NCBI GenBank assembly: GCA_029820565.1
Contig: JALGUR010000059.1
Location: 1 to 36,694, forward strand
Origin: Candidatus Zipacnadia bacterium
GTDB lineage: Bacteria; Armatimonadota; Zipacnadia; Zipacnadales; Zipacnadaceae
DNA length: 36,694 nucleotides
Direction: 5' to 3'
In this document: positions 11,156-36,694 of the stretch, piece after piece
Layout of the letters: each line of letters starts with the position of its first letter
Numbering within the stretch: the stretch's first letter is position 1
Made by a program: the position numbers and the translations under genes
Notes under the pieces: generated by a model
What the model was told of the DNA's origin: nothing
The model's database searches: none
Seen by the model: only the letters and a program-made list of their open reading frames with translations

Positions 11156-11157
11156 GA

Positions 11158-11877: not shown

Positions 11878-11902
11878 CGTAGCGCGACAGATAGTGGGGA
11901 CG

Positions 11903-17059: not shown

Positions 17060-17075
17060 TGCGAGTCTCCACTGT

Positions 17076-17105
17076 ATAATACTCGAACGGTAAACATCAT
17101 ACCAA
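17076..17105 (-). promoter_or_regulatory. Candidate promoter of the ABC-2/LolA-like operon
   Basis: Read on the minus strand: TTGGTA (17105-17100), 18-bp spacer, TATTAT (17081-17076). Transcription would start near 17069, giving a very short leader to GTG 17059. This supports the shorter ATPase start. Confidence 0.45.
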
Positions 17106-20301: not shown

Positions 20302-20515
20302 ATTATTGTGTGTTAGGCGGCGAATTGGCAGCGAAGCGTAACTGTATCTCACCATCTATCAGAGACTGTTCCCCCTGGTGAGTCCACAAAGTTTTTGAAA
20401 AAATTTTGTCTGCGCAAAGAATTTCGTCTGAAGGAAGGAATCTACAAAGCGGCAAGGAATATGGGCTTCGGTTTGTCTACAAACTTGGTGTTATGCGCCT
20501 TGAGGATAGATAGTG

Positions 20516-22345
20516 ATGAATGAACTAATTCCAGTAGTGTGCCCCTTTTGCGGGGTTGGCTGCGGGATGTACTTGCAGCGGCTCAGTGGCGGCGTCATAG
20601 CAACAGTCCCCAGCCGCAGTGATGTGGTATCCGAAGGCCGGCTGTGCGTGCGCGGTTGGCAGACGGGCGATTTGCTACGCAACTCGCAGCGACTGACCTC
20701 ACCGCTGGTAGATGGTCGCCCCGTATCCTGGCCCGAGGCCCTGGAGGAAGTGACCCGGCTCCTCAGGCAGATACTCGGGAGTCGAGTAGGGATATTGACG
20801 GCCGGCCATTTGACAAATGAAGAAGGCGCTGCCGTCAGTTATTTCGGGCGGGAAGTCCTGGGCACTGCTCATCTGGACAACTTTGGTAGAATGGTGGACG
20901 GTCCTGCCATTTGGGGACTACAATACAGCCTTGGCCAGCCCTACCAGCGGCCTTCAGTGGATACCTTACCCGATTATGATCTGGTCGTGTGCCTAAACTC
21001 CAATCTTGGTGACTTGAATGCGCAAGCCGGCACCTGGGTACATAAAGCCCAGCAAGCCGGAACCAAACTAATAGTCATTGATGCAGCAGACGACGGATTG
21101 GGCCAGGATGCACAGGTCTATGTCCAACACATTCCGGGAGCCACGGCCGCGCTGCTGCGGGAACTCTTAAGTCAACTAAACAGCCAAGATGTGCCTCTTC
21201 CCTCCCCCGATCTTGCTAAGTTAGGCCCGGCGAGCCTTAGTGAAGCATTGCTGCAAACCACGGAGATGATGCAAGCGGCCACGCGAGTAGCCATTGTATT
21301 GTCAACCCGCGCCATTGCCACTCCTGAGCCGGCCATAATGGCCGCCGAAGTAGCCAAATACATTAACGGTACTGACGGCCACCATGCCGAAGTGTTTGCG
21401 GTAGGCGGAACTCCTAACGCCGTTGGATTGATTCACATGGGAGTTGCCCCTCGGGGGCCAGATAGCGAGGGGCTGAGCGTAGGTGAGATGCTGGCCCGAG
21501 AGCAACAGGGTCTGGACGGACTAATAGTCATCGGAGAAGAATTGGGAGCGTGGCTGGGCGAAGGAGGATTGCGGTCACTGCAGCAAAGGCTACAGGCCCT
21601 CATAGTAATAGATAGCTTTCTCACCCCTACCACCAAGATCGCTCATATAGCCTTACCGATGGCGGGCTTTGGGGAGAAAGAGGGCAGCTTTACCGGGCTG
21701 TATGGACAGGTTCGCTGGAGTGGCGCAGTGGCCCCTCCTTCTGAGGGGTGCCGCTACCTGCCCGAGATATTATCCGAACTGGCCACCGGGTTAGATAGGC
21801 CAGCCGGCGCTGTAGATGTTGAGTCTATCTGGCAACAAATCAACCAACTTATATCCGGTTATGAAAATATTCAACTCGCTGAGCTACGCCAGGAGGGCCA
21901 GGCACCGTTGGGGCAGACTGTGCTGGTGCCTCAAGCCGGCTCAGTTGAGTTGGATTATGAGCCCCTGGCCCGAGAAGAGTCCACGGACAGGCCATACACG
22001 CTAATTAGCCGCTATGACGAGAATTGGTGGACTTTGGACGGGCGAGTGCCCGCGGTGCCGGCGCTATATCGCGAGGCCCGTGACCTGCAAGCCGGCTATG
22101 CCCTGATGAACCCGGCGGATATGGAAAAGGAACAGGTCCGCCCGGGCCGCTCGGCGATTATCCAGACCGTGGAGGGCGGCGGGCGATTGGCACTTCATCC
22201 CCACGTCGGTATACCCGAGGGGTACATAGTCCTGCCCGCGCACCAGCTAAAATTCCTCCAGCGGCTTATGGGATTTGGCCGGTACGACGGGGCGAGCAGT
22301 GCTATATATCGCCGCTCCGTTGCGGCAGAGCTGAAGAAAGGCTAA
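20516..22345 (+). CDS. Molybdopterin-oxidoreductase-like (FdhF/NuoG-like) subunit lacking the Cys/Sec metal ligand
   Basis: The 609-residue protein begins with a [4Fe-4S] site, C9-x2-C12-x3-C16-x27-C44, as in formate dehydrogenases, NuoG and Nap/Nas. It continues with molybdopterin-type domains (WPEALEEV, GSRVGILTAGHLTNEE, GEKEGSFTGLYGQVRWSG) and a C-terminal molydopterin-dinucleotide-binding-like barrel (MNPADMEKEQVRPGRSAII). In FdhF the Mo ligand lies in ARVUHGP; here the aligned stretch is GRMVDGP, with Val127 and Asp128 replacing Sec/Cys and His. The conserved Lys after the last cluster Cys (LCLKG in FdhF) is Arg46 (LCVRG). Formate oxidation at a Mo site is therefore unlikely, and the protein is probably an electron-wiring or structural subunit like NuoG. 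ATG 20516 follows GAGGA. HydB-like starts 3 bases after the stop. Confidence 0.85.
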   Translation: MNELIPVVCPFCGVGCGMYLQRLSGGVIATVPSRSDVVSEGRLCVRGWQTGDLLRNSQRLTSPLVDGRPVSWPEALEEVTRLLRQILGSRVGILTAGHLTNEEGAAVSYFGREVLGTAHLDNFGRMVDGPAIWGLQYSLGQPYQRPSVDTLPDYDLVVCLNSNLGDLNAQAGTWVHKAQQAGTKLIVIDAADDGLGQDAQVYVQHIPGATAALLRELLSQLNSQDVPLPSPDLAKLGPASLSEALLQTTEMMQAATRVAIVLSTRAIATPEPAIMAAEVAKYINGTDGHHAEVFAVGGTPNAVGLIHMGVAPRGPDSEGLSVGEMLAREQQGLDGLIVIGEELGAWLGEGGLRSLQQRLQALIVIDSFLTPTTKIAHIALPMAGFGEKEGSFTGLYGQVRWSGAVAPPSEGCRYLPEILSELATGLDRPAGAVDVESIWQQINQLISGYENIQLAELRQEGQAPLGQTVLVPQAGSVELDYEPLAREESTDRPYTLISRYDENWWTLDGRVPAVPALYREARDLQAGYALMNPADMEKEQVRPGRSAIIQTVEGGGRLALHPHVGIPEGYIVLPAHQLKFLQRLMGFGRYDGASSAIYRRSVAAELKKG

Positions 22346-22348
22346 TCT

Positions 22349-23425
22349 ATGAACAATACTCAGAGATATGCCTTGCCCGATGAGAGGCTACCGGAGGCAG
22401 TTCGCCGGCTCTTTGACCTTCCTGAGCAGATCATCGCTCCCGCTGGAGCGCCGCGGGGAGATATTTTCTATCAGCCGGTAGATAGCGCCGATGAGATACA
22501 GTTGGATTTCGGTATCGCTCTGGTCTCGCCGGTACAGTATCTATTGCCCGCTGCGGAAGTGCTGTTTGAGTACCGACAAAATGGCGACGGTTCACCTCAG
22601 TTCAGCGCACCAGCAACTCCTCCGGAGCGCATCATTTTCGGCATTCGCCCGTGTGACATCGCCGCTATTCAATACCTTGACCAATTCTATATGGAGCGTG
22701 AGCCAGTAGACACCCTGTACGCGGCGCGACGCGAGGCAACTACGCTGATCGCCCTGGCCTGCGCCGAGCCAGCCGCTGACACCTGCTTCTGTTCCTGCTG
22801 CGAAGGAGGCGGACCGGTCGCTGAAGGGGGCTTTGATGTCCAGTTAAGCCCGGTAGGAGACCGGTATCTGGTCGAAGTCGCCACGGAGAAAGGTCAACAG
22901 ATCCTCCAGCAGTGGCAGGATTTGCTCGAGCCGGCTTCTGAGGAACTGGTCGCGGCGCGGGATGCGCAGATGCGTCGCGCAATAGAAGAGCAGCTCCAGA
23001 CCGTATCCAACCTGGCGGCAGCAATTCGGCGCATTAGCGCCGATCGCGTCAATCCTGAGACTTGGGAGACTATTGGCCACGATTGCTACAGTTGCGGGGG
23101 CTGCTCGTATCTGTGTCCGGTTTGCACTTGCTACGACGTGGTAGATATCAAGTACGATGATAATAGCGGCACCCGGATAAGGCGAGTAGACTCGTGCCGT
23201 CTGGCCGGATTTACCCGAGAGGCTACCGGTCATATTCCCCGGCCTACTCCTGCGTCCCGCGCTCGCTGGTATGCCTATCATAAACTTAGCTACGACTATC
23301 ACCAGGAGCGCGACCGTTATGGATGTGTAGGCTGCGGGCGGTGCATTATTACCTGCCTCGGGGAAATAGGTATGCCCAGGGTCTGCGAGTTGGTGCGCCA
23401 GCCCGAAGCAGAAAAGATAGGTTAA
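22349..23425 (+). CDS. hydB: Sulfhydrogenase beta-subunit-like iron-sulfur protein (HydB/AsrA-like)
   Basis: This 358-residue protein matches the beta subunit of sulfhydrogenase and the A subunit of anaerobic sulfite reductase. It has an N-terminal domain (FYQPVDSADEI, LLPAAEVLF, FGIRPCDIAAI) and two ferredoxin-type [4Fe-4S] motifs: C246-x2-C249-x2-C252-x3-C256 and C327-x2-C330-x2-C333-x3-C337. Further Cys pairs occur at CFCSCC near 146-151 and CTC at 259-261. It passes electrons between the flavoprotein gamma subunit and the catalytic module. ATG 22349 follows AAAGG, with only three bases after the upstream stop, implying tight coupling. No group-3b alpha/delta hydrogenase subunits are present here, so its partner is more likely the Hyf complex below. 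Confidence 0.9.
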   Translation: MNNTQRYALPDERLPEAVRRLFDLPEQIIAPAGAPRGDIFYQPVDSADEIQLDFGIALVSPVQYLLPAAEVLFEYRQNGDGSPQFSAPATPPERIIFGIRPCDIAAIQYLDQFYMEREPVDTLYAARREATTLIALACAEPAADTCFCSCCEGGGPVAEGGFDVQLSPVGDRYLVEVATEKGQQILQQWQDLLEPASEELVAARDAQMRRAIEEQLQTVSNLAAAIRRISADRVNPETWETIGHDCYSCGGCSYLCPVCTCYDVVDIKYDDNSGTRIRRVDSCRLAGFTREATGHIPRPTPASRARWYAYHKLSYDYHQERDRYGCVGCGRCIITCLGEIGMPRVCELVRQPEAEKIG

Positions 23426-23553
23426 TCATCGCCTCACAACTGTGGCATTCGGTGGCGCAGCCTTCCAGCCTGTGGACAAGAACAGTAAGTCTCACGGAGG
23501 CGGGAAGCCCGAACCACTAAGAATGGTATAAGGTGAGGTGCGAAGGAGACAAA

Positions 23554-24384
23554 ATGGAGCAAGTTGATTACATTCCTCAACCGGCCATTATCGACGAGAT
23601 TCGGGCCGAGACACCGACGGAGAAGAGTTTCACCCTTAGGTTCACTGACGGCAAAGAATTCAACTTCCGCCCCGGCCAGTTTGTCGAGGTGTCAGTACTG
23701 GGCGCCGGGGAGGCTCCTTTCTGTATCGCCTCTTCACCGGCTCAGACCGACGCGATTCAAATAACGGTCCGGCGCTACCCCCAGGGAACGGTTAGTGCCG
23801 CTCTGCACGAACTGGAGGAGGGCGATTATGCCGGGGTGCGTGGGCCGCTGGGCAACGGCTTCCCGTTAGAGGAATTTAAGGGGAGAGACATACTCGTTGT
23901 CGCTGGTGGCATTGGCCTGCCCGCTGTCCGCGCCACTATTCTGTATATCCTGGACCATCGCAGTGAATATGGAAACTTCATCTTCCTGTACGGGGCGCGT
24001 ACGCCAGCCGATCGGGTCTACACCGACGAGTTAGAAATATGGGAGGGCTCGCCGCAGATTGAATGCATGCAAACTGTAGATGTCAAAGATGAGGGTAGTT
24101 CATGGGATGGCCATGTCGGCCTTATCACTACCTTATTTGAACCTTTGGAAATTGATGGGCCTCAGACTACGGCTATCATCGTGGGGCCGGCGGTTATGTA
24201 TCCCTTCGTGGTAGCCGAATGTCGGCAAAAGGGTGTTGCCGACGAGAATCTGTACTTTTCACTCGAGCGACATATGAAGTGTGGCGTTGGCAAGTGCGGT
24301 CATTGTACCATTGGGGATAAATATGTATGCCTGGATGGCCCAGTCTTCACTTACGCGCAGATGCAGCAAATGCAGGGAGAGTAG
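23554..24384 (+). CDS. hydG: Sulfhydrogenase gamma-subunit-like FAD/NAD(P)-binding reductase (HydG/AsrB-like)
   Basis: The 276-residue protein has a ferredoxin-reductase FAD domain (RPGQFV at 39-44, FCIASSP), an NAD(P) domain (VVAGGIGLPAVR near 115-126, FLYGAR) and a C-terminal [2Fe-2S] motif C243-x4-C248-x2-C251-x7-C259 (MKCGVGKCGHC...YVC). This is the PyrK/AsrB/HydG architecture, exchanging electrons between NAD(P)H and an Fe-S partner. ATG 23554 has AAGGAG five bases upstream, which decides it over GTG 23533. The symbol here means sulfhydrogenase gamma, not the HydG radical-SAM maturase of [FeFe]-hydrogenases. Together with hydB it forms a ready NAD(P)H module for the hydrogenase. Confidence 0.92.
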   Translation: MEQVDYIPQPAIIDEIRAETPTEKSFTLRFTDGKEFNFRPGQFVEVSVLGAGEAPFCIASSPAQTDAIQITVRRYPQGTVSAALHELEEGDYAGVRGPLGNGFPLEEFKGRDILVVAGGIGLPAVRATILYILDHRSEYGNFIFLYGARTPADRVYTDELEIWEGSPQIECMQTVDVKDEGSSWDGHVGLITTLFEPLEIDGPQTTAIIVGPAVMYPFVVAECRQKGVADENLYFSLERHMKCGVGKCGHCTIGDKYVCLDGPVFTYAQMQQMQGE

Positions 24385-24461
24385 CACTATACACAGCCGG
24401 CATCTGGAGGGAGCGAGGGACAGTCGGCGCCACTTGCTGTCGCAGCAGACTGTCAGAGATA

Positions 24462-24923
24462 ATGAACGAACTGGAACAATATGTAGGCCAGGATTTATTG
24501 GTAGTAGGAGTAGGTAATCCGCTGCGCGGTGATGATGCCGCCGGGCTGGCTCTGGGTGAGCAACTCGCCGAGAAACTGCACTGGCCATATCTGTGCTGTG
24601 AAGAGGTCCCGGAGAACTACCTGACCGAGATGCTTGACAGTCCCGCCGAGACCATTCTGATGGTGGACGCGGTTAGTCTGGGCACCACGCCCGGTGATAT
24701 TAAGGTTCTGTCGCCCGACCAGTTGGCCGGTGACAATATATCCACCCATAACTGTTCAGTGAGTCTGTTAGCCACTGTGCTGGAAAAAGCGGCAAACAAA
24801 CGGGTTTTGGTATTGGGCATCCAGCCTGCCAACATGGGATGGGGTAGTCACTTGAGTCAGCCTGTTACTGAGGCTATTGATAATTTTGTGGCCGGTCTGT
24901 CCGATAAAGGCGGACACGCGTAG
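24462..24923 (+). CDS. hycI: Hydrogenase maturation endopeptidase (HycI-type)
   Basis: The 153-residue protease has VVGVGNPLRGDDAAG at the N-terminus and the expected nickel-sensing residues: D24 or D25 (HycI D16), D69 in MVDAV (D62) and H96 in STHNCS (H90). It removes the C-terminal extension of the [NiFe] large subunit after nickel insertion. The large subunit here (HyfG) does carry such an extension after DPCFSCTER, so substrate and protease match. ATG 24462 is preferred, because the open frame upstream overlaps hydG. The stop codon TAG lies inside a palindromic repeat (24917-24985). Confidence 0.9.
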   Translation: MNELEQYVGQDLLVVGVGNPLRGDDAAGLALGEQLAEKLHWPYLCCEEVPENYLTEMLDSPAETILMVDAVSLGTTPGDIKVLSPDQLAGDNISTHNCSVSLLATVLEKAANKRVLVLGIQPANMGWGSHLSQPVTEAIDNFVAGLSDKGGHA

Positions 24924-25086: not shown

Positions 25087-26529
25087 ATGAGTGCATTATT
25101 ACAGATGTCAGCGCGCGATCTACTGGTGCCCTTAGTGGCTGCTCCTTTAATAGGAGCGTTGCTGTGCATATTTCTGAAAAGACGCCTCAGTGATTTCGTG
25201 GCGGCTATCTTTGCCGCTATTACCTTGGTGCTGGCCATAGGGACCATCGGCGATGTCTTTGCTAACCTAAGCCACACCGTCAGTGTGCCGCTGGCCAGGC
25301 TGGCGATGTTGGGCGGCGAGACCGGCCCTGCGCCCCTGGTCTTTGAACTGTCTATAGATGCTCTCGGAGCATTGATGTTATTCATAGTAACGGTGATTGG
25401 CTTTCTGGTCGTCGTTTACTCCTCCGCGTACCTCAGCCCCAACAACGTCGAACACCCCGCGGGCGAAGCCAAGGGCAGATATTATGCCTGGTTGTTGTTG
25501 TTCCTGGGCGCGATGGTAGGCATAGCACTGGCCGGCAACTTTTTCCAGTTGTTCATCTTCTGGGAGTTGACTACACTATGCTCGTGGGCGCTAATCTCTC
25601 ATTATCAGAATGAAGAGTCGCTGCGGGCCGGTTTTAAGGCCCTGATAATGACGGCCATTGGCGGATTGTTCTTTATCCTGGCGCTGGTGCTGATGTACCT
25701 TAGCGCCGACAGTGAGCCGTTCGCGTTTGATGTTTTGAGCCGGGTTGCTCCTGGAGTGCGCACCACGATTTTCGTATTTCTGCTTATCGCTGCCTGGGCC
25801 AAAGCCGCTCAGTTTCCCTTCTTTACCTGGCTGCCCGATGCTATGGCGGCTCCTACCCCAATTAGTTGTTACCTGCACGCGGCGGCCCGGACCGTCTCGG
25901 CCAGTTTCGGGCTATCCTACGGCGTTGGCCTGTTGATGGGTATTATGGCCCTGGGCACAATCTTCATCGTTGTTTTCCTGTTCTTGTTCCAGGATGACCT
26001 GAAGAAGATATTGGCACTTTCCACTATCGCCCACCTTGGCTACATATTAGTGGCCTGTGCCATGGGAATTTGGGGTTCCACTACGGCCTTCCAGGGCGGG
26101 CTGCTGCACATCGCCGCCCACGGCTGTGGCAAGGGCCTGCTGTTCCTATCGGTTGGCATGTTGACCTATTACACCGGCACCCGGCAGGTCTCTGAACTCT
26201 CTGGAGTCGGCGCCAAATTGCCGCTTGTTGCCTTGGCCTTCTTTGTAGGAGCGTTCACGATTGCCGGCGTTCCCCCCTTGGCCGGTTTCTGGAGCAAGTT
26301 CTTGGGCGCAGTGATAGCTATACTGCTGCTGGCAGAAAGCGCGATTGCCTTTGGGTTCTTCCTGTGGATAGGGCATAGAGTATTCTTTGGCAAGCCGTCG
26401 GCCGCAGTGGCTCAGGTGGAGAAATCGATCGGAGTCATGCACGTTGTGATTGTTCTTCTAGCGATACTCTGTGCCACAGTACATATATATGCAATTCCAT
26501 TAGCAGAACACATACCGCTCGGGATGTGA
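25087..26529 (+). CDS. hyfD: Antiporter-like membrane subunit (HyfD/NuoL/MrpA-D superfamily)
   Basis: The 480-residue protein with about 14 membrane segments is close to E. coli HyfD in length. It shows the proton-channel landmarks of the family: FWELTTLCSW (Glu in TM5), WAKAAQFPFFTWLPDAM (Lys in TM7), PTPISCYLHAA, QDDLKKILALSTIAHLGY and HGCGKGLLFLSVG (Lys in the discontinuous helix). After LHAA the sequence runs ARTVSASFGLSYG instead of the usual MVKAG type, and this stretch looks shorter than in relatives. It should move H+ or Na+ across the membrane, driven by the hydrogenase redox reaction. It precedes hyfB, unlike the B-C-D order of E. coli. There is no obvious Shine-Dalgarno at 25087; ATG 25105 is an alternative. 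Confidence 0.82.
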   Translation: MSALLQMSARDLLVPLVAAPLIGALLCIFLKRRLSDFVAAIFAAITLVLAIGTIGDVFANLSHTVSVPLARLAMLGGETGPAPLVFELSIDALGALMLFIVTVIGFLVVVYSSAYLSPNNVEHPAGEAKGRYYAWLLLFLGAMVGIALAGNFFQLFIFWELTTLCSWALISHYQNEESLRAGFKALIMTAIGGLFFILALVLMYLSADSEPFAFDVLSRVAPGVRTTIFVFLLIAAWAKAAQFPFFTWLPDAMAAPTPISCYLHAAARTVSASFGLSYGVGLLMGIMALGTIFIVVFLFLFQDDLKKILALSTIAHLGYILVACAMGIWGSTTAFQGGLLHIAAHGCGKGLLFLSVGMLTYYTGTRQVSELSGVGAKLPLVALAFFVGAFTIAGVPPLAGFWSKFLGAVIAILLLAESAIAFGFFLWIGHRVFFGKPSAAVAQVEKSIGVMHVVIVLLAILCATVHIYAIPLAEHIPLGM

Positions 26530-26536
26530 ACAAGTA

Positions 26537-28564
26537 ATGGTTGATGCTGACCTACTGATTGCTGCATTGGTGTTATTGGTCGCGGGCGCTATTATCACGA
26601 CGGTGATCGCTCGGTACCGCAGACTTTGTGGTTATGTGGCGTTCGTGACTGCACTTATTGCCGCCATCTGGGTTACTATGGTGGCCTGGCAGGCTCTCAC
26701 CGTTGGGCCGGTACAGGCCAGAGTTCCGCTGCTGACTATTACCGAGCTGGGTAGCCCCCTGCTCTTCGTTGTGGACCAGTTGAGTGCGGTCTTTCTGCTG
26801 ATTACTGCCCTAATAATGGTGTGTACTACCTTGTTCTCCATGCGCTATATCCTGATTTATGAGCGCTACAGCCTGGCGCGGTATTATCCGCTATTGCTGT
26901 TGTTCTTCGGTAGCGTCATCAGTGTGCTCTCAGTGCACAATATGCTTTTTTTCTTGCACTTTTGGGAGTTCATGACTCTGACTTCGTATGTTTTGGTAGT
27001 TTTCCATTGGGTCAATCCGGACTCGGGCCCGGCCGGGCTGAGATACTTCATAGCCACACATGTCGCCATGGTCTGCATGCTGATAGCCACTATCATTGTC
27101 TATCGCCAGGTGGGTTCACTGGAGTTCGCGGCAGTGCGGGAGGCCATAGCCGAACTGACAGTTACTAGCCCCGCTACAGTTCATCTGATCCTGGCGCTGT
27201 TTGTTGTCGGCTTTGCCACCAAAGCGGGCATTCTGCCTTTTGGTTTCTGGATGCCCGACGCTTACCCGGCCGCTCCTACTGCTGCTTCAGCAGCTTTTGT
27301 CGGCACGATGTGCAAGCTGGGCGTCTACGGTATCGTACGTTTCTTCACTACCTGCCTACCGTTGTCACACTTCGTGACAACTTGGGGCATCATAATCGCG
27401 GTTCTGGGTACCATTTCTATCTTTATCGGGACCATTACTGCTCTACAACAAACTGATTCAAAGCGCTTACTCACCTTTCACGCCATCGGCCAGACCGGTT
27501 ATATGTGGCTGGCGGTCGGCCTTGGCCTGGCCCTGCTACGCATTAGTCCTGCGGTGGCCACTCTCGCCCTACTCGCCGGTCTATTCCACACAGTTAATAA
27601 TGCGTTGTTTAAGCCCTTGTTATTCCTTAACGCCGGCGCGGCCCTGTACCGAACTGGCACCCGCGATATGGATAAGGCGGGTGGGCTGATGGCGATAATG
27701 CCGGTCACGGCCGTCACCGCCATAATAGCCTCGCTGGCCATTGCCGGAATCCCCGGTCTCAATGGCTTTGTCAGCAAGTGGCTCATCTTCCAAAGTACCG
27801 TTGTAGGCGGGTTTGAACTGCCCGTGTTTGTGTTCCTCGGTATCGTCGCCATCTTTATCTCCGCGGTCACGCTGGCCTCCTTCCTGAAATTCCTGGGCAT
27901 GCTGTTTGTGGGTAGGCTACACGTAAGTCCAGAGGTGGAGCGTCGCGAAGTGCCACTGACTATGGTCATCCCCCAGGTGACGATCGCCATCTTCTGCGTA
28001 CTGTTCGGGGTGCTACCGATACTGGTGATGAGGCATCTGTACACTGCGGTCAGCGCAATTCTACCCAGCGGTTATTCGCCCGCGTTTGCCTCTCTGTTCG
28101 GCACTTCACCCCTCACGGTCAACCTAAGCCTGAGCGGGGCACCCGCCGGGGCCTGGGGGCCGATAGTCATCCTGGTAGCCTTTGCCGGGTGCTTGGCCCT
28201 GGCCTACCTTATTTTCCGCATGGGTGGGGCCCGGACCCGAGAGGTGCCAATGTGGCTGTGCGGGGAGGAACACGATTTCGCTGAAGTCCGGTATCCCGTC
28301 CACAGTTTTCTGCTGACCTTCAATCGTTATTTCGCTAAGATATATCCATCTATCCCATTCGCTCAGTTGGCCCGGCCCACGGCCGTGCTGAAACTACTCG
28401 ATATTGACCGTTGGGTCTATGATCCTATGTTCAGAGCGTTACGGTGGATTATGCGAGGCATGAGCGCTAGCCATACAGGATTGCCTCAATTTTACATGCT
28501 GTGGATGATTGTGGGGGCGGCTCTGGCGGTAATTGTGCTATTCAGTATGGCAGGCGGGCTGTAG
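26537..28564 (+). CDS. hyfB: Large antiporter-like membrane subunit (HyfB/NuoL-like)
   Basis: This 675-residue protein, matching E. coli HyfB in length, has 14-16 membrane segments. Landmarks are FFLHFWEFMTLTSYVLVVFHW (TM5 Glu), GFATKAGILPFGFWMPDAYP and APTAASAAFVGTM (TM7-8), QTDSKRLLTFHAIGQTGYMW, HTVNNALFKPLLFLNAGA (TM12 Lys) and the C-terminal lateral region with EEHDFAEVRYPVHSF. It forms the distal ion-pumping arm. The start lies 7 bases after the hyfD stop. Downstream is the second palindromic repeat, then hyfC. Confidence 0.88.
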   Translation: MVDADLLIAALVLLVAGAIITTVIARYRRLCGYVAFVTALIAAIWVTMVAWQALTVGPVQARVPLLTITELGSPLLFVVDQLSAVFLLITALIMVCTTLFSMRYILIYERYSLARYYPLLLLFFGSVISVLSVHNMLFFLHFWEFMTLTSYVLVVFHWVNPDSGPAGLRYFIATHVAMVCMLIATIIVYRQVGSLEFAAVREAIAELTVTSPATVHLILALFVVGFATKAGILPFGFWMPDAYPAAPTAASAAFVGTMCKLGVYGIVRFFTTCLPLSHFVTTWGIIIAVLGTISIFIGTITALQQTDSKRLLTFHAIGQTGYMWLAVGLGLALLRISPAVATLALLAGLFHTVNNALFKPLLFLNAGAALYRTGTRDMDKAGGLMAIMPVTAVTAIIASLAIAGIPGLNGFVSKWLIFQSTVVGGFELPVFVFLGIVAIFISAVTLASFLKFLGMLFVGRLHVSPEVERREVPLTMVIPQVTIAIFCVLFGVLPILVMRHLYTAVSAILPSGYSPAFASLFGTSPLTVNLSLSGAPAGAWGPIVILVAFAGCLALAYLIFRMGGARTREVPMWLCGEEHDFAEVRYPVHSFLLTFNRYFAKIYPSIPFAQLARPTAVLKLLDIDRWVYDPMFRALRWIMRGMSASHTGLPQFYMLWMIVGAALAVIVLFSMAGGL

Positions 28565-28574
28565 GCTCCCCAGC

Positions 28575-28616
28575 CGCGTAGCTCGGGAGGCAAGGTCGGA
28601 GAACATCGCCTACGCG
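28575..28616. repeat. Palindromic intergenic repeat, copy 2
   Basis: CGCGTAG (28575-28581) and CTACGCG (28610-28616) are perfect 7-bp arms around a degenerate centre. It sits in the 86-bp gap between hyfB and hyfC. Here the stop of hyfB lies 11 bases before the repeat rather than inside it. Confidence 0.7.
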
Positions 28617-28650
28617 ACAATGGGTTGGCGGAAAGAAAAGAAAGGTTGAG

Positions 28651-29547
28651 ATGATGACTTTTGCAATTAATATTGGGCTGGCTTTGCTGCTGGGGCCGTT
28701 GCTGGCGGGAGTGGTGCGCAAGATGATTCGGGCCCGGGTCCACTCGCGCCAGGGCCCGCCTATCGTCCAGCCCTTCTACGATCTATTCAAACTGTTAGGT
28801 AAAGAAGACCTGGAGTCGGGGCCCGGCCTGGTTCTGCGCTATGCACCAATGGTTGCCTTCGCCGCTATCCTGGCGGCTGCTCTGCTGACGCCGATGGGGC
28901 TCCGGCCACCCCTGGGCGGGTACGGAGATATGATAGTTTTTACCTATTTCATCACCATCGCCGTGGTAGGGGTAATCATGACGGGACTGACCAGCGCCAG
29001 TCCGTACTCGATGCTGGGCGCCGGTCGGGAGATAATGATGCACCTGATAGTCGAACCGGTGCTAATCATTTGCCTGGTGACCGCGGCTATCAAGTGCGGT
29101 TCGCTGCTGATGTGGGACATGGCCGCATCAAATTATGTAAATGGTCCCAGCATTTCCATGGTGGTGGCGGCGGTAGCCTTGTTCTTGGCTTTGCAGGCCC
29201 AGATAGGTAAGCTGCCCTTTGATATTCCCGAGGCCGAGACCGAGATTATGGGCGGCCCGTTCATTGAGCTCAGTGGGCCTAAGTTGGCCTTGTTTCAGTG
29301 GGCCTTCTTTGCTCGCCAGATTGTCTACGCTTCGGTACTGGCGGCCATTTTTATCCCGTGGGGAACCGGCTTTGCTCTCCCCTGGAATATCGCCGCGCAC
29401 CTGCTGAAGGTGATTGTGATTATATTGCTGGTGGGTCTGATTGACGTGGTGAATCCGCGCCTCAGAATAGACCAAGCGATGACATACTTTTTCGGGGTGA
29501 TTTTTGTGGCGTTAGTGGGTATGGGGTTTGCACTGATTGGCGCTTAG
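28651..29547 (+). CDS. hyfC: Membrane anchor subunit (HyfC/HycD/NuoH-like)
   Basis: The 298-residue protein has about eight membrane helices. It carries the NuoH-family signatures RARVHSRQGPPIVQPFYDL near the N-terminus, MLGAGREIMMHLIVEP and LPFDIPEAETEIMGGP (acidic loop contacting the quinone- or hydrogenase-side subunits). It links the hydrophilic HyfGHI arm to the ion-pumping subunits. ATG 28651 (or 28654) follows AAAGG and GAG. hyfE begins 37 bases after the stop, in the order of the E. coli operon. Confidence 0.92.
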   Translation: MMTFAINIGLALLLGPLLAGVVRKMIRARVHSRQGPPIVQPFYDLFKLLGKEDLESGPGLVLRYAPMVAFAAILAAALLTPMGLRPPLGGYGDMIVFTYFITIAVVGVIMTGLTSASPYSMLGAGREIMMHLIVEPVLIICLVTAAIKCGSLLMWDMAASNYVNGPSISMVVAAVALFLALQAQIGKLPFDIPEAETEIMGGPFIELSGPKLALFQWAFFARQIVYASVLAAIFIPWGTGFALPWNIAAHLLKVIVIILLVGLIDVVNPRLRIDQAMTYFFGVIFVALVGMGFALIGA

Positions 29548-29584
29548 TTAAGTAACAGCAAGCGATACGGAGAGAAAATCAACG

Positions 29585-30250
29585 ATGCATTACAGCCCTA
29601 TCTTAACTATGACATTGGGTGCACTACTAACTGGCGTCTTGGCGGCGGAAGTGCGGAATCTACGTGTTTCAACCTGGGCCTATCTGGTACATTCGCTGTT
29701 TCTGGCCGCTACCATTGCGGTCTTCGGTAGCGTAACTAATACCCCCCGGTTGTATTGGTGGGTATTGAGTACGGTTCTAAGTAAGGTTATCTTCATCCCT
29801 TTGGTACTGCGCTGGTACACTATAAAGTATCCGGCGACTGAATTGCGCCCGATACTGGGGTTCCGGGTGTCTTTGATTGTTATGTCAGTGGTCTTACTGG
29901 CCTGCTTCAAACTGGTGCATACCTATATAGATTTTGTCGCTCCCACCGAGGCTGCCACTTTGGAGCCGGCCCGCTCCAGCCTGGCCGTAGCTTTTACTGT
30001 ATTTGCCTTGGGACTGTATATCCTGGTGACTCGGCGGGACGCGATAAAGAATGTTATTGGTATATGTCTATTGGAAAACGGGGCACATTTGTCTCTGGTG
30101 GTGCTCGCCCCTACTATGCCGGAAACTGCACTGTTGGGCATTACGAGCAGCATCGTCCTATCCGCGTGGATGCTCATATACGTGACCGGCGGGGTGTATG
30201 AGGTATATGGTGGGCCAGATACCTTTAAGCTGTCTAAGTTGCGCGGGTAG
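29585..30250 (+). CDS. hyfE: NuoK-like membrane subunit (HyfE)
   Basis: The 221-residue membrane protein (E. coli HyfE is 216) has about seven helices. The second half carries the NuoK-like motif TRRDAIKNVIGICLLENGAHL with a membrane Glu, and ends VYGGPDTFKLSKLRG. It belongs to the proton-translocating part of hydrogenase-4-type complexes. Its presence, with HyfD and HyfF, points to the larger hyf-type complex instead of the smaller hyc-type. ATG 29585 follows GGAGAG. Confidence 0.9.
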   Translation: MHYSPILTMTLGALLTGVLAAEVRNLRVSTWAYLVHSLFLAATIAVFGSVTNTPRLYWWVLSTVLSKVIFIPLVLRWYTIKYPATELRPILGFRVSLIVMSVVLLACFKLVHTYIDFVAPTEAATLEPARSSLAVAFTVFALGLYILVTRRDAIKNVIGICLLENGAHLSLVVLAPTMPETALLGITSSIVLSAWMLIYVTGGVYEVYGGPDTFKLSKLRG

Positions 30251-30293
30251 GGCCTTAATGCTCAGCCCCTAACAATTGGGAGTGTACGAATGG

Positions 30294-31799
30294 ATGACTG
30301 AATCGTTTCTTCCTGTGGCTTTAATTGGTGTGCCCTTAATCGCGTCGCTAGTTATCTTCACACTGGGACGTTGGTCCCAACGATGCCGCGAGGGGGTGGC
30401 TGTGGGCGGCGGGCTACTGACCCTATATCTCAGTGTGCTCATTACCAGAGCGATTATCGGGGGAGGCGTCTTACACGGTTACCTGCAGACCTACGCGGAC
30501 GGCCTTAGCGCTTTAGTAGTGCTGTTAGTGAGCATTGTAACCCTAATCATCATCGGATACTCAATCCCGTATATGAATCGGCAAGTCCAGCAAGGGAAGA
30601 CCACCGCCCAGCGACTGGTGATTTACTACGGGCTCGTCATGCTCTTTTTGGCCGTGATGATGTGGGTTTGCTTGACCAACAATATGATATGGCTATACGT
30701 AGCCTTGGAAGGCATCACGCTGGCTACTGCCTTGTTAGTATGTTTTTACTGGAATCGGGAAGGATTGGAGGCGAGCTACAAGTATCTGATATTGGTGGTA
30801 ACCGGTTTGTGTTTTGCTCTTTTCGCCACTGTACTGCTCTATTCCGCAGCAGGCCAATACGCACCAGGGCTTCCCGCTCTAATGCTAACTGAACTGGGTC
30901 GCATAATCCCCAAGATCCCCCGCAGTATCAATCTGTTGGCGGTCGCCTTCTTCATAGTCGGCTTTGGTACCAAGGCCGGATTGGTTCCCTTTCATGCCTG
31001 GCTGCCCGACTCTCACTCCGAGGCCCCTGCCCCGATTAGTGCGCTATTGTCAGGCCTGGTAATTAAGGTGGGGGCTTATGCGCTGGCCCGAACTATCACC
31101 ATATTCGCCCCTCACTACAACGCAGTAATCGTCTTCGTGGCCATTATGGCTTCGGCCAGTATGTTGATTGGCATATTTATGGCTTGGGCCCAGGACGACC
31201 TCAAGCGGCTCTTGGCCTTCCATAGCGTCAGCCAGATTGGGTACGTAATTGAGGGGCTGGGATTTGGCACATATTTGGGAGTCTATGGCGGCCTGTTCCA
31301 TCTGGTAAACCATACCATATTCAAGTCGCTGCTGTTCCTCAGCGTCGGGGCGGTGATGTACGCGACCGGAGGACTACGCCGTATCAGCCAGCTTAAGGGA
31401 TTGGGCCGCAAGATGCCGATAACTGCGGTCTGCTTCTTCATTGGCGCTGTGGCTATGGGCGGATTGCCCCCGTTTAATGGCTTTTGGAGCAAACTGACTC
31501 TGTTTATGGCCGGTGGAGAATTACATCTGTGGTGGGCCGTAGCCATAGGTATGCTGGTTAGCATCTTAACTTTAGGCTGTATGGTCCATGCTGGTTACAA
31601 GGTGTTCTGGGGGCATCCGACCACCGAACCGGCGACTAACCCTGGCCTTAAGGAAGTTCCGGCCGCCATGTGGGTGGGTATGGGCGTGCTGGCCGCACTT
31701 TGTCTTATTATAGGCGTTTATCCGCAACTGATTCATCCACTGCTGCACCGGGGCACCGAGTGCATTCTTGCCGTCTACCGCGCCGGTGCGGTGCCATAA
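30294..31799 (+). CDS. hyfF: Antiporter-like membrane subunit (HyfF)
   Basis: The protein is about 501 residues with 14 membrane segments. Family landmarks are WLYVALEGITLATALLV (TM5 Glu), GFGTKAGLVPFHAWLPDSHSEAPAPISALLSG, QDDLKRLLAFHSVSQIGYV and HLVNHTIFKSLLFLSVG. The SHSEAPAPISALLSG wording is specific to the HyfF/HycC-like clade. It is the third antiporter-like subunit of the complex after HyfD and HyfB. ATG 30294 is chosen, with GGGAG 11 bases upstream; the open frame also allows TTG 30276 or GTG 30282. The PhnD-like gene starts 44 bases after the stop. Confidence 0.88.
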   Translation: MTESFLPVALIGVPLIASLVIFTLGRWSQRCREGVAVGGGLLTLYLSVLITRAIIGGGVLHGYLQTYADGLSALVVLLVSIVTLIIIGYSIPYMNRQVQQGKTTAQRLVIYYGLVMLFLAVMMWVCLTNNMIWLYVALEGITLATALLVCFYWNREGLEASYKYLILVVTGLCFALFATVLLYSAAGQYAPGLPALMLTELGRIIPKIPRSINLLAVAFFIVGFGTKAGLVPFHAWLPDSHSEAPAPISALLSGLVIKVGAYALARTITIFAPHYNAVIVFVAIMASASMLIGIFMAWAQDDLKRLLAFHSVSQIGYVIEGLGFGTYLGVYGGLFHLVNHTIFKSLLFLSVGAVMYATGGLRRISQLKGLGRKMPITAVCFFIGAVAMGGLPPFNGFWSKLTLFMAGGELHLWWAVAIGMLVSILTLGCMVHAGYKVFWGHPTTEPATNPGLKEVPAAMWVGMGVLAALCLIIGVYPQLIHPLLHRGTECILAVYRAGAVP

Positions 31800-31843
31800 C
31801 CGCAGTACAGATGAGTCAGGCGACAAAAAGAAGGTGGCTTGTA

Positions 31844-32758
31844 GTGTGTAGAACTGACCGCATCCGAATTATACTGGGGCTTGTTGCAGGAGTAGTGATG
31901 GCCCGCTGCGCGGCCGGGTGTGGGCCCATTCACCCGGTCGAGTCGGCCCCGCCGCCCAAACCTGTAGTCAAAATAGCCATTATGCCCCGATATTCACCTT
32001 ACACTATGACCAAACGCTATATGCCACTGGTTAAGTATCTGCGTCAGGAAACTGGCTACGACATTAGCTATGTCTCTGCAGTAGGGTATCGCGGCTTTCT
32101 GAGCGCGGTAGAACGTGCTGATGCCGACTTGGTCTTTGTTAATCCGATGGCCTATGTAACCTTACAGAAAACTCGCGGCGCCTATCCGTTGGTCATAGCT
32201 GTGGAACCAGACTTTGCAGGCGGTGTTCCTCGGACCAGATACCGGGGCGTTATTCTGACGCGAGCTAATAGCGGCATTACTCGCATTGCTGACCTAAAAG
32301 GTAAGATAATAGCCACGGGCTCAGAAATGGCCGTAGCCGGCTATCTGGCTCCCAAGGCCCTTTGTCGACAGGAAGGTTTGGACATAGACCAAGACGCCAC
32401 TATCACTGTCTGCCCTACTCAAGAAGACGTAATCAAACGGTTGCGCCAAGGCCGAGTCCAAGTGGGCTTTGTCCGCGAAGCCATCTGGCAGGAGGCCGTC
32501 ACCAGTGGCTCGCCCAGCACCGAGCTAAGACCCATTGCCTACACTATGATGTTCCCGGGCTGGTGCGTTTGTGCCCTGGGCGATACTGATGAGAGTGTAG
32601 CGCAAACCGCCAAAGAGGCCCTGCTGAAGTTGGACTGGAGCAGACTACAGTCCCGCACAGTGTTGGGTCAAGCGGGTCTGCGCGGCTTCGTAGAAGCTGA
32701 TGATGAAGAGTATGGCACCGTCCGTCACCTGCTGCAAAGTCTAAGAATGCCCTACTAA
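31844..32758 (+). CDS. PhnD-like periplasmic substrate-binding lipoprotein inside the hyf operon
   Basis: This 304-residue protein has a lipoprotein signal: basic start (CRTDRIR), hydrophobic core (IILGLVAGVVMA) and a lipobox-like AAGC. A phosphonate/phosphite-binding domain (PF12974-like) follows: IAIMPRYSPYTMTKRYMPLVKYL, then DADLVFVNPMAYV, IADLKGKIIATGS and a QEDVIKRLRQGRVQVGFV segment. GTG 31844 is favoured: AAGGTGG lies six bases upstream and it gives a normal-length signal peptide. ATG 31811 is an alternative. No ABC ATPase or permease for such a ligand is in the window. It lies between hyfF and hyfG on the same strand, so it may be an accessory, sensory or assembly factor of the hydrogenase. 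Ligand unknown. Confidence 0.8.
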   Translation: MCRTDRIRIILGLVAGVVMARCAAGCGPIHPVESAPPPKPVVKIAIMPRYSPYTMTKRYMPLVKYLRQETGYDISYVSAVGYRGFLSAVERADADLVFVNPMAYVTLQKTRGAYPLVIAVEPDFAGGVPRTRYRGVILTRANSGITRIADLKGKIIATGSEMAVAGYLAPKALCRQEGLDIDQDATITVCPTQEDVIKRLRQGRVQVGFVREAIWQEAVTSGSPSTELRPIAYTMMFPGWCVCALGDTDESVAQTAKEALLKLDWSRLQSRTVLGQAGLRGFVEADDEEYGTVRHLLQSLRMPY

Positions 32759-32825
32759 ACATTGCTGGACTATTGGGCGTCAGTAACTTGACAGCCAGTT
32801 AATAACTTTGGGAAGAGAAGATACG

Positions 32826-34502
32826 ATGAGTGCACAACAATTGGGTGAGAGTGTAAAACAGAGATTTGGCGATAAGGTGATAAGCTTTAGTGTGCCTCAG
32901 CCTGACCAACTATACTTGACGGTAACTTCCGACAGCATAGTACCGGTGGCCGAGTATCTGTATAAGGATCAGGGCTGTAGGTTCATTATCAACTCGGGCA
33001 CCGACCGCCGCCAGCAGCGTGGCAAGTTTCTGATTACTCATTTCTTCGCTCAAGATAAAGAGAAGTTCTATATTGCTGTGCATACTGAGGTGGATGAGGA
33101 CGAGCCTCAGATAGATTCCATCACTCCCTCAGTGCCGGCGGCTAATTGGAGTGAGCGGGAGACGCGGGATATGGTGGGGGTGGTCCCGACCGGCCATCCC
33201 GACCCCCGGCGCCTGGTACTATCCGACGACTGGCCGGAGGACCTTTTCCCACTAAGGTGGGATGTGGAGCACGGCGTGAAGCCTCCGTCTGTGGAAGGGG
33301 TGGCCCCCGAACGCTTGGCTCCCCCTGAGGGCGCCAGTGTTGTGCCCATCGGCCCATATTTTCCGGTTTTAGAAGAGCCGGCTTATTTCCGCGTATTTGT
33401 GGAGGGCGAGGAGGTAGTGGGCGCTGATTATAGAGGTTTTTACAGTCACCGCGGCGTGGAGAAGCTGGGTTGCAGCGTCCTGACCTACAATCAGATACCC
33501 TTCATTGCCGAGCGCATCTGCGGCATCTGTGGCTTCGTTCACAGTTGCTCTTATTGCCAGGCAGTAGAACGGGCGGCCGGCATTGAGGTTCCGCCGCGCG
33601 CTGAGTATATTCGCACCATCATGCTGGAGTTAGAGCGCATTGAGAGCCATACACTCTGGCTGGGCATTGCGGGACACATAATCGGGTTTGACACCGTCCT
33701 GATGCAGACGTGGCGGATGCGCGAACCGTTAATGTGGCTGTGCGAGCGCATCTCGGGTAATCGCAAGACCTACGGAATGAACTTAGTCGGCGGGGTGCGG
33801 CGTGATATTAAGCCCGAGATATACGATGATATTCGTCAGGTCTTGACCGATATTGAACGAGAGTGGCAAGAACTCTACGATGCCATCCCTGGCGATAGCA
33901 CCCTGATGGCTCGCCTGCAGGGCACCGGTATTCTGCCGACGGAAGTTGCCCGATCCCTCGGCGCCGCAGGACCCACCGCTCGCGGTTCAGGTTTAGCCAT
34001 TGATGTGCGGGTGGATCATCCCTTTGCCGCCTACGATCGCCTGGAAGTTACCAAGTGCGTCTATGACGGGTGCGATAACCTGGCGAGGACCCTGGTGCGG
34101 TTAGACGAGACCGTAGATTCAATTAAGATAATCCGCCAGGCCCTACAGGATATGCCCGAGGGGCCGATAATGGCTGAGATCGATGAGGAAATTCCAGCTG
34201 GCTGCGAGGGAATGAGCGCCGTCGAGGCACCACGGGGTGAGGTTTTCCACTGGGTACTGACCGGTACTGAAAATCGCCCCGAGCGCTGGCGGGTACGAGC
34301 GCCCACCTATGCTAATCTCCAAAACGTGCCGCCGATGCTGGAAGGCAATGCCCTGGCCGATGTCCCCATTTGTATCGGCAGCTACGATCCGTGCTTCTCA
34401 TGCACCGAACGGATGGAAATAGTGGATGTCAACTCGGGGCAGGTGCGCGTGTACAGTCAAGAAGAGATACTGAACGGGGACTATCGCCGCCAGGATGACT
34501 GA
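32826..34502 (+). CDS. hyfG: Group-4 [NiFe]-hydrogenase large subunit, NuoC-NuoD fusion (HyfG/HycE-like)
   Basis: The 558-residue protein has an N-terminal NuoC-like domain (about 1-155, with WSERETRDMVGVVPTGHPDP) fused to the NuoD-like catalytic subunit. Motif L1 is RICGICGFVHSC with C232 and C235; motif L2 is DPCFSCTER with C523 and C526. All four Cys ligands of the Ni-Fe site are present, so this is a true hydrogenase, not a complex I relative. The 30-odd residues after L2 are the extension removed by HycI. It evolves or takes up H2 at the cytoplasmic face. ATG 32826 follows GGAAGAGA; an upstream TTG at 32808 is unlikely. Confidence 0.96.
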   Translation: MSAQQLGESVKQRFGDKVISFSVPQPDQLYLTVTSDSIVPVAEYLYKDQGCRFIINSGTDRRQQRGKFLITHFFAQDKEKFYIAVHTEVDEDEPQIDSITPSVPAANWSERETRDMVGVVPTGHPDPRRLVLSDDWPEDLFPLRWDVEHGVKPPSVEGVAPERLAPPEGASVVPIGPYFPVLEEPAYFRVFVEGEEVVGADYRGFYSHRGVEKLGCSVLTYNQIPFIAERICGICGFVHSCSYCQAVERAAGIEVPPRAEYIRTIMLELERIESHTLWLGIAGHIIGFDTVLMQTWRMREPLMWLCERISGNRKTYGMNLVGGVRRDIKPEIYDDIRQVLTDIEREWQELYDAIPGDSTLMARLQGTGILPTEVARSLGAAGPTARGSGLAIDVRVDHPFAAYDRLEVTKCVYDGCDNLARTLVRLDETVDSIKIIRQALQDMPEGPIMAEIDEEIPAGCEGMSAVEAPRGEVFHWVLTGTENRPERWRVRAPTYANLQNVPPMLEGNALADVPICIGSYDPCFSCTERMEIVDVNSGQVRVYSQEEILNGDYRRQDD

Positions 34503-34568: not shown

Positions 34569-35057
34569 GTGATTGCCAGTAAACTCAAGGAAGCGATTCT
34601 TTGTTTGCGTCCCGGGCTGGTGACTTTGAAGTATCCCTTCCAGCCCCATCCTCCCGAGGAAGACTTCCGGGGCTATCCGGAGGTTGATGCTGACAAGTGT
34701 ATCGGCTGTGGGGGCTGTGCGGCGGTTTGTCCGGCGCGGGCTATAATGATTCAGGATATTGACCAGAATACCCGCCGTATCGTCCGGCTTTTGGAGCGAT
34801 GTATATTCTGCGGGCGCTGTGCCGACGTCTGTCCTGAAGATGCCATTACTATGACAAAGCAGTTTGAACTCTCCTCAGATATGGGGCGGGAGGATATGGA
34901 ATCAGAATGTCAGGTATTTATGGCTACCTGCCAGCGCTGCGGACGTTGCTATGAGCCGGCGACTCCGCTGGACAGGATTATGCAGCCAGGCTTCCGCCAC
35001 GACGAGATTAAGCGCGGCGGGCAGGACTCCCCCTATGAGCCAGTAAAACCCGCGTAG
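34569..35057 (+). CDS. hyfH: Polyferredoxin-like subunit (HyfH/HycF/NuoI-like)
   Basis: This 162-residue protein has two full [4Fe-4S] motifs: C44-x2-C47-x2-C50-x3-C54 and C78-x2-C81-x2-C84-x3-C88. A third CxxCxxC (C121, C124, C127) lies near the C-terminus, matching the extra zinc- or rubredoxin-like knuckle seen in HycF/HyfH. It relays electrons from the input module to HyfI. Translation begins at GTG 34569 with GGAGG ten bases upstream. The C-terminal codons and the TAG stop run into the third palindromic repeat. Confidence 0.93.
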   Translation: MIASKLKEAILCLRPGLVTLKYPFQPHPPEEDFRGYPEVDADKCIGCGGCAAVCPARAIMIQDIDQNTRRIVRLLERCIFCGRCADVCPEDAITMTKQFELSSDMGREDMESECQVFMATCQRCGRCYEPATPLDRIMQPGFRHDEIKRGGQDSPYEPVKPA

Positions 35058-35084
35058 GCGGGGTTTGACAACCTCCGCTACGTG
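35051..35084. repeat. Palindromic intergenic repeat, copy 3
   Basis: CGCGTAG (35051-35057) and CTACGTG (35078-35084) enclose GCGGGGTT and AACCTCCGC. The TAG of the left arm is the stop of hyfH, exactly as in copy 1 for hycI. It lies in the 60-bp gap before hyfI. Confidence 0.75.
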
Positions 35085-35117
35085 AGACGCCGTGACAATC
35101 GTGCCAGGAGGAAGAGA

Positions 35118-35615
35118 ATGTTCAAAGAGTTGTGCCAGAAGGCTTTTCCCAAATCGTTGTGGGTATATCACACCAATACTGGTGCCTGCAACGGTTGTGA
35201 TATAGAGGTAATTGATGTACTGACACCCTACTATGATGCCGAACGATTCGGTATCAAATTGGTGGGTTCCCCGCGTCATGCTGATGTGCTGCTGGTCTGC
35301 GGACCGGTTACCCGCCAGGTGGTCCCGGCCCTCAAACGGCTCTATGACGCGGTGCCTGACCCCAAATTGGTTATTGCCATCGGTTCCTGTGCCGTCGGGG
35401 GAGGCATCTGGTTTGACAGTTACAATATCGTCGGCGGAGCCGATACGATTCTGCCCGTAGACTATTACATTCCCGGCTGCCCGCCTCGCCCCGAAGCAAT
35501 CCTGCACGGAGTCGCGATGGCTCTGGGACTGGTCGAGAAGCAAGTAGAGCCGGTTCACCTCAAACAACTCCCCGACCGCCCCGAATCAATACCAGTAGAG
35601 TCTGAGACCCCTTAA
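35118..35615 (+). CDS. hyfI: [NiFe]-hydrogenase small subunit (HyfI/HycG/NuoB-like)
   Basis: The 165-residue protein has the NuoB-type proximal [4Fe-4S] ligands: TGACNGCDIEV (C24, C27), IGSCAV and IPGCPPRPEAI. This is the short group-4 form without the distal cluster domain or Tat signal of uptake hydrogenases. It sits next to HyfG and hands electrons to the Ni-Fe centre. ATG 35118 has AGGAGG six bases upstream and is preferred to ATG 35082, which lies in the repeat region. It is the last + strand gene before hypA, which converges on it with 14 bases between stops. Confidence 0.95.
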   Translation: MFKELCQKAFPKSLWVYHTNTGACNGCDIEVIDVLTPYYDAERFGIKLVGSPRHADVLLVCGPVTRQVVPALKRLYDAVPDPKLVIAIGSCAVGGGIWFDSYNIVGGADTILPVDYYIPGCPPRPEAILHGVAMALGLVEKQVEPVHLKQLPDRPESIPVESETP

Positions 35616-35629
35616 CCGGGCTTGATGAT

Positions 35630-35995
35630 TTAAGCCTTCTGCATTATCTCACCGCTTTCGCGCAGTTCGGCACTGATTAATTGCAGTTCATAGCCTGACT
35701 TTATTTTCAAGTTCAAACTGCCACATTCACTACACTCCACAAAGGGTTCGTAGGCTTCGGTCTCGGCTCCACATTCGTTGCAAACAGCGGTGATAGGAAC
35801 TTGCTGGATGTGCAGTTCCGAGCCGGCCAGCGGAGTATCTTCGGTCAGCGCCTGATAGGCGGACGTAAGCAAATCCGGAACGATCATACTCATCGGTCCA
35901 ACGGCCACGGTCGCCGCGACGACTTGCTGGTCATATTCCTCGGCCACCGATATGAGTGTCCTAACAATGTTACTCGCGATGGAAAACTCGTGCAT
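35630..35995 (-). CDS. hypA: Hydrogenase nickel-insertion protein HypA
   Basis: This 121-residue protein begins MHEFSI, with the nickel-binding His2-Glu3. It carries a zinc site C72-x2-C75 and C88-x2-C91 (VCNECG, VECSECG). It hands nickel to the large-subunit precursor together with HypB. Length is normal for the family. The start has AGGAGAG five bases upstream. It is divergent from hypB across 144 bases, so the two genes probably share a control region, while hyfI converges on it from the other side. Confidence 0.96.
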   Translation of the reverse strand: MHEFSIASNIVRTLISVAEEYDQQVVAATVAVGPMSMIVPDLLTSAYQALTEDTPLAGSELHIQQVPITAVCNECGAETEAYEPFVECSECGSLNLKIKSGYELQLISAELRESGEIMQKA

Positions 35996-36020
35996 AACTC
36001 TCTCCTATTTCCTGATACAC

Positions 36021-36050
36021 ATTGTAGCATCATAAGTTACTGGCAGGCAA
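36021..36050 (-). promoter_or_regulatory. Candidate hypA promoter in the hypA-hypB divergent region
   Basis: Read on the minus strand: TTGCCT (36050-36045), 18-bp spacer, TACAAT (36026-36021). On the plus strand a perfect TATAAT at 36105-36110 could serve hypB, but it lacks a good -35 box. Confidence 0.4.
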
Positions 36051-36139
36051 GTGTCAGGCTCCCACGAACCTATCGTGCAGGAAGGACGTCTGCTTATCAG
36101 GAAGTATAATCTGGCAAGCCGACAGGATAGATTGTAACT

Positions 36140-36694
36140 ATGAAAGTTGAACTGATGAAAAATCTTCTGGGCGATAATGATGCGGTTGCCCAGGAGAATC
36201 AGCAGTTGTTCCAGAGCCAGGGAGTGCTGGCGGTGGATTTTATGGGCAGTCCCGGTAGCGGCAAGACCAGCATCCTGCAGCGGCTAATAGAATTAGTAGA
36301 TGACCTGACTATCAAGGTCATAGAAGGCGATGTGGCTACGGCCAACGATGCGCGGCGCATTGAAGCAGCCGGCGCCGAGGCTTTTCAGATAAACGCCGAG
36401 GCTTTTCAGATAAACACCGGCGGCGCGTGTCATCTGGACGCGCCCATGATCCGCCGCGCCGTAGCCCAGATGGACCTGAGTAGCACTGACCTGCTGCTGA
36501 TTGAGAATGTCGGCAATTTAGTGTGCCCGGCGGCGTTTAAGTTAGGCGTGCATGCCCGCATAGTGGTGAGCAGCCTTCCCGAGGGAGATGACAAGCCAGA
36601 GAAGTATCCGGTGGCGTTTCGCGGCTGCCAGGGCGTGATTCTGAACAAAATTGACCTGTTAGATTATCTTGATTTTGACACTGATACATTCTGG
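36140..36694 (+). CDS. hypB: Hydrogenase/urease nickel-incorporation GTPase HypB, 3'-truncated by the window
   Basis: The frame is open from ATG 36140 to the window end (185 codons). Features are P-loop GSPGSGKT (36-43), IEGDVATANDARRIE, GGACHLDA with the metal-site Cys-His, LLIENVGNLVCPA, VSSLPEGDDKPEKYP and the NKxD motif NKIDL. It supplies nickel to the hydrogenase with GTP hydrolysis. There is no His-rich or CxxCGC N-terminal nickel store. A perfect 21-bp tandem duplication inserts an extra AEAFQIN just before TGGACHLDA, next to the metal-binding site. It lies immediately after hypA, divergently. Confidence 0.94.
   Translation, partial: MKVELMKNLLGDNDAVAQENQQLFQSQGVLAVDFMGSPGSGKTSILQRLIELVDDLTIKVIEGDVATANDARRIEAAGAEAFQINAEAFQINTGGACHLDAPMIRRAVAQMDLSSTDLLLIENVGNLVCPAAFKLGVHARIVVSSLPEGDDKPEKYPVAFRGCQGVILNKIDLLDYLDFDTDTFW
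36374..36415 (+). repeat. Perfect 21-bp tandem duplication inside hypB
   Basis: Units 36374-36394 and 36395-36415 are identical and in frame, each coding AEAFQIN. Other HypB proteins have this segment once before TGxxCHLDA. Confidence 0.93.

Follow-up and report, generated by a model that had tools for sequence, protein, structure and literature searches.

The window analysed here, a stretch of 36,694 nucleotides from a Candidatus Zipacnadia bacterium, carries a hyf-type hydrogenase operon in which the gene of a PhnD-fold lipoprotein is placed between hyfF and hyfG (Table 1). The reading frame opens with a GTG at 31844 and stays open until the stop at 32758. Its product matches the PF12974 (Phosphonate-bd) domain over the full length (E 6.7e-52, 177 bits against a cut-off of 27) and falls below the cut-off of the NCBIfam PhnD equivalog TIGR03431 (71.7 against 261.1 bits). 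The GTG start is well supported, since in the relatives G006 and G012 in-frame stops lie immediately 5′ of the corresponding codon and a probable ribosome-binding site, GAAGGTGG, stands ahead of it. In all five families carrying the gene, a lipobox cysteine recognized by eye follows a hydrophobic stretch (AAGC/TTGC, VIAGC, FCGC, LLGGC and LAGC). The initial annotation described a PhnD-like binding lipoprotein with hyfF and hyfG as its flanks, and the domain match, the lipobox and the neighbouring genes bear this out.

Table 1. Features of the window and the basis on which each was assigned
Feature	Position	Strand	Basis
Molybdopterin/FdhA-like subunit, sulfhydrogenase beta- and gamma-like subunits, HycI protease	20513..24923	+	Profile matches
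hyfD, hyfB, hyfC, hyfE, membrane arm	25087..30250	+	Profile matches
hyfF, antiporter-like membrane subunit	30276..31799	+	Profile matches; orthologues elsewhere in the phylum
Probable ribosome-binding site	31830..31837	+	Read directly; 7-14 bases 5′ of GTG 31844
hyf-linked PhnD-fold lipoprotein gene, 304 aa	31844..32758	+	PF12974 match; stops in relatives fix the start
Lipoprotein signal peptide, lipobox AAGC, Cys26 at 31919-31921	31844..31921	+	Lipobox by eye
Ala163-Val164-Ala165, replacing the oxyanion-binding Ser-Thr-Ser	32330..32338	+	Sequence alignment to Te_PtxB and PhnDs of the phylum
Arg211-Glu212, clade motif F[VI][RK]E, Te_PtxB S178 position	32474..32479	+	Alignment
Trp240 (capping Tyr position), then Cys241	32561..32566	+	Alignment
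hyfG, group 4 [NiFe]-hydrogenase large subunit	32808..34502	+	Profile matches; ATG 32827 is an alternative start
hyfH and hyfI	34569..35615	+	
hypA and hypB	35630..36694	hypA -, hypB +	

An AlphaFold2 model of the window protein and one relative reached a pLDDT of 43 and a pTM of 0.35, too low for use. In the G260 protein (L100, 4889-6019), the lipobox is separated from the PhnD domain by a CorC_HlyC domain (PF03471, E 4e-16). A third PF12974 match in the window's genome (22.5 bits) was set aside, as its reading frame reads like HisG.

The hyf operon of the window

The large subunit HyfG resembles that of a true [NiFe] hydrogenase, as it contains the motifs RICGIC and DPCFSC. The membrane arm and this subunit are similar to those of the Hyf/Hyc formate hydrogenlyases of E. 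coli and Pantoea, with 42% identity between HyfG and HycE. The Pantoea hyc cluster differs in having no binding protein, and the window operon departs from the Hyf/Hyc type in two further respects, its FdhA-like subunit and its extra sulfhydrogenase-like beta and gamma subunits. In formate dehydrogenase H, the active site reads Arg-Val-Sec-His. At the matching position, the FdhA-like subunit (20513-22345) reads GRMVDGP, and the Sec/Cys-His pair is missing from it as well as from the aligned relatives. The complex is therefore probably no formate hydrogenlyase, its Hyf membrane arm notwithstanding, and for the same reason formate, one of the ligands suggested at first, becomes less likely. Sulfhydrogenase beta/AsrA-like and gamma/diaphorase-like subunits are encoded within the operon at 22349-24384, which suggests that electrons enter from NAD(P)H or ferredoxin.

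No ABC importer subunits were found in the whole window; its two ABC sets are a MacAB-like one (10208-14275) and an ABC-2 one (15288-17116). A simple scan of the hyfF-hyfG interval returned no promoter-like site. Upstream of the hydrogenase operon, a TIR-domain protein (PF13676) is encoded at 19316-19984.

Distribution and loss of the inserted gene

The operon context was compared among the genomes of the window's phylum. The order hyfF-PhnD-hyfG is found in family f1 in the window's own genome (G000), G006, G011 and G012, and in two further f1 genomes, G001 and G014, the contig starts within the PhnD gene and hyfG comes next. Three other families have the order hyfF-hyfI-PhnD, represented by G017 (f4), where hyfF is divided over two contigs meeting at residues 432/430, G054 (f19) and G260 (f41). 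In G247 (f38) the order is hyfF-PhnD-hyfH-hyfI, beside a run of N. Two distant places on one scaffold of this genome (L101 and L102) hold parts of the hyf operon, with hyfF bordering the N run, and the split is a probable scaffolding error. The gene order thus varies among families, and the PhnD gene keeps its place beside hyfF or hyfF-hyfI. Retention in five families indicates neither chance nor a single-genome event, and the linkage of the lipoprotein to the hydrogenase, proposed from the window's operon, is supported by this placement. Contig C24 of the window's genome (L019) bears another copy, which was considered as a paralogue and rejected: over 2913 bases this contig matches one from G012 at 99.97% identity and is therefore probably mis-binned.

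Of the phylum's 291 genomes, 30 have a HyfF orthologue and 10 the hyf-linked PhnD, which makes the latter an accessory gene. Three genomes, G016 (contig C81), G053 and G248, have hyfE, hyfF and hyfI without it. An association between the presence of the PhnD gene and that of hyfF was considered and dropped, because several operons end at contig ends. At L091, L095, L097, L098, L099 and L108 the hyf operon is shortened: hyfE and hyfF are missing, in some cases hyfD too, and the remaining genes keep the order of the full operons. Beyond the operon comparison, a scan of genome contigs yielded one relative only, the viral contigs scanned contained none, and the best plasmid matches were ordinary PhnDs of about 25% identity. 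In the open-access literature subset, no published link between PhnD and a hydrogenase operon was found.

Conservation in relatives, as envisaged in the initial annotation, holds for the locus but not for every member of the group. In G003, 28 residues of the PhnD C-terminus are left in the hyfF-hyfG gap, and in G009 a still shorter end, DGQYNVVRRLLYELGISY-stop, was matched by eye; G002 lacks the gene together with hyfD, hyfE and hyfF. In the HyfG tree, G003 groups with G011 (support 100/100) and G009 with G006 and G012 (99/94). Such nesting among carriers implies at least two losses of the PhnD gene with the operon kept. Since only a 3′ remnant persists in these two genomes, the gene is dispensable, and the losses together with the many hyfF operons that lack it mean that its product is no core subunit. 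These losses in close relatives are ready-made natural comparisons.

Where it is retained, the gene is under purifying selection, with weaker constraint than the hydrogenase enzyme. The dN/dS ratio is 0.12 for G000-G001, 0.15 for G000-G006 and 0.05 for G000-G011, dS being saturated in the more distant pairs, including the last. In the closest and least saturated pair, G012-G006, it amounts to 0.31 against 0.08 for hyfG.

Descent and ligand pocket

In a tree that also includes Te_PtxB and 25 of the phylum's other PhnD-domain proteins, a branch supported at 99/99 separates nine hyf-linked sequences from all the rest. A model built from this clade scores its members at 390-504 bits and other PhnDs at no more than 130. 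The sequences of G054 and G260 pair in the PhnD tree and in the HyfG tree alike, as expected where the gene travels with its operon.

The clade is also set apart by its missing transporter. In the window's genome, which is 89.5% complete, the best PhnE match scores 31.8 bits against a cut-off of 216.7 and the best PhnC match 173.8 against 266.1. No orphan PhnC/PhnE pair above the family cut-offs is thus present elsewhere in that genome, and the protein does appear to lack transporter subunits, as first noted for its surroundings. Across the window's genome and the eleven others with the gene or a remnant, the best PhnE match reaches 45 bits against the same cut-off. None of the 10 carriers has PhnE above the cut-off, against 16 of 17 genomes with ordinary PhnD-domain proteins, a contrast that is descriptive because the 17 were picked from the PhnD match list and are mutually related. 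In those 16 genomes PhnE mostly lies a few kilobases from PhnD; the exception, G024, has a PhnD-PAS-HisKA kinase. The genes tested downstream of the hyf operon in other families included no transporter genes.

In Te_PtxB and Pm_PhnD, a Ser-Thr-Ser motif, a His and Tyr residues bind the oxygen atoms of the ligand, and a Tyr caps the site (PMC5700983). Searched against the PDB, the clade profile matches Te_PtxB (5jvb) best (E 3e-30). The hyf-linked proteins share its fold family but differ from it in the pocket, in the lack of PhnE and, in the window's genome, of PhnC above cut-off, and in their hydrogenase operon. The counterpart of Ser-Thr-Ser, located like all pocket positions by sequence alignment, is AVA in five f1 sequences and G017, GVG in G247, LLF in G054 and SFF in G260. 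The motif is whole in no clade member; its first Ser is kept by G260 only, against 25 of 25 other PhnDs, and the pocket His likewise survives in G260 only. The position of Te_PtxB S178 is occupied by Arg (Lys in G260) and that of the capping Tyr by Trp (Pro in G054). The Cys that follows is present in 10 of 10 clade sequences and absent from all others, and the alignment places it at or beside the pocket.

A ligand of the phosphonate/phosphite type, assumed in the initial annotation, is disfavoured by these replacements, as the Ser-Thr-Ser that grips such ligands in PtxB and PhnD is gone. The "phosphonate binding" label of PF12974 is probably misleading for the hyf-linked protein. A sulfur-containing ligand may be guessed at by analogy. 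The conserved Cys, the arsenite-binding Cys of AioX (at a different position), the precedents of TtrS and ThsS and the sulfhydrogenase/AsrA-like subunits of the operon would be in line with such a guess.

Proposed role and competing explanations

The hyf-linked PhnD may be a dedicated lipid-anchored accessory or sensory protein on the membrane arm of the Hyf hydrogenase, and no phosphonate importer, a reading to which we give about an even chance. Its ancestor would have been a PhnD-family periplasmic binding protein deprived of its ABC transporter, in which the phosphonate-type oxyanion site was lost and a different pocket was gained, with Arg or Lys, usually Trp, and Cys. The catalytic arm of Hyf-type enzymes is on the cytoplasmic side, which limits any contact with the lipoprotein to the outer face of the membrane arm. 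The most likely seat of the protein would be there, near HyfF. A small molecule bound by it, perhaps a carboxylate or an anion containing sulfur, could tune the complex or report on it, which would make the role regulatory rather than one in assembly. In a stronger version, a binding protein has turned into a ligand-responsive regulatory subunit, through which an extracellular molecule, perhaps via the Cys, controls proton-coupled H2 metabolism at the membrane arm; this version is speculative and rather unlikely. We are aware of no complex-I-like hydrogenase that has a solute-binding protein anchored by a lipid. Should the protein dock on the complex, it would open a way for an external ligand to control a proton-pumping enzyme.

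Alternatively, the protein could be the periplasmic sensor of a two-component system encoded elsewhere, similar to AioX or ArrX, with the hydrogenase operon as its target. AioX and TtrS are PhnD-fold sensors, and ArrX is among the PDB relatives of the clade. AioX, a transporter-free PhnD-fold protein linked to a respiratory enzyme, senses arsenite via Cys106 (PMC5908839), and TtrS carries a PhnD-like sensor domain (PMC5408782). The sensor explanation also draws on a TtrS/ThsS-type kinase at L017, whose residues at two positions of the pocket are likewise Arg and Trp, and on a response regulator near the G017 copy. However, AioX has a partner kinase and retains its Ser and His residues, whereas in the hyf-linked protein the counterparts of Ser161, Ser163 and His192 are replaced in the alignment and the Cys is elsewhere. 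The TtrS/ThsS-type kinases differ in that their PhnD-like domain is fused to the kinase, the hyf-linked protein being a stand-alone lipoprotein. Run against the whole phylum, the TtrS model gave nothing but kinase domains among the matches listed and was uninformative. No sensor kinase or regulator gene was found in the window's hyf operon, and the lipoprotein gene has structural genes of the enzyme, not a regulator, as its neighbours. A sensor of this kind is rather unlikely. A role in assembling or stabilizing the membrane arm, with the fold retained as a ligand-free scaffold, would explain the vanished oxyanion motif and the position of the gene after hyfF, and the additional domain of the G260 protein could suit a scaffold. 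Hyf operons without the gene are nevertheless common in the phylum, and residues of the pocket region are conserved throughout the clade, which leaves this explanation quite doubtful.

The protein might still be the binding component of an ABC importer, if the permease gene lay elsewhere and had diverged beyond recognition. The importer-type fold, the lipoprotein form and the many ABC ATPases in the genome are compatible with this, but it is improbable given that no carrier genome has PhnE above the cut-off, that PhnC is below it in the window's genome, that the ligand motif is gone and that the gene is linked to the hyf operon. Finally, the gene could be a neutral or decaying passenger. The remnants in G003 and G009 and the raised dN/dS of the closest pair relative to hyfG would fit a passenger gene; such an origin is nonetheless very improbable, as the frame and the motifs are intact over five families and dN/dS is far below 1.
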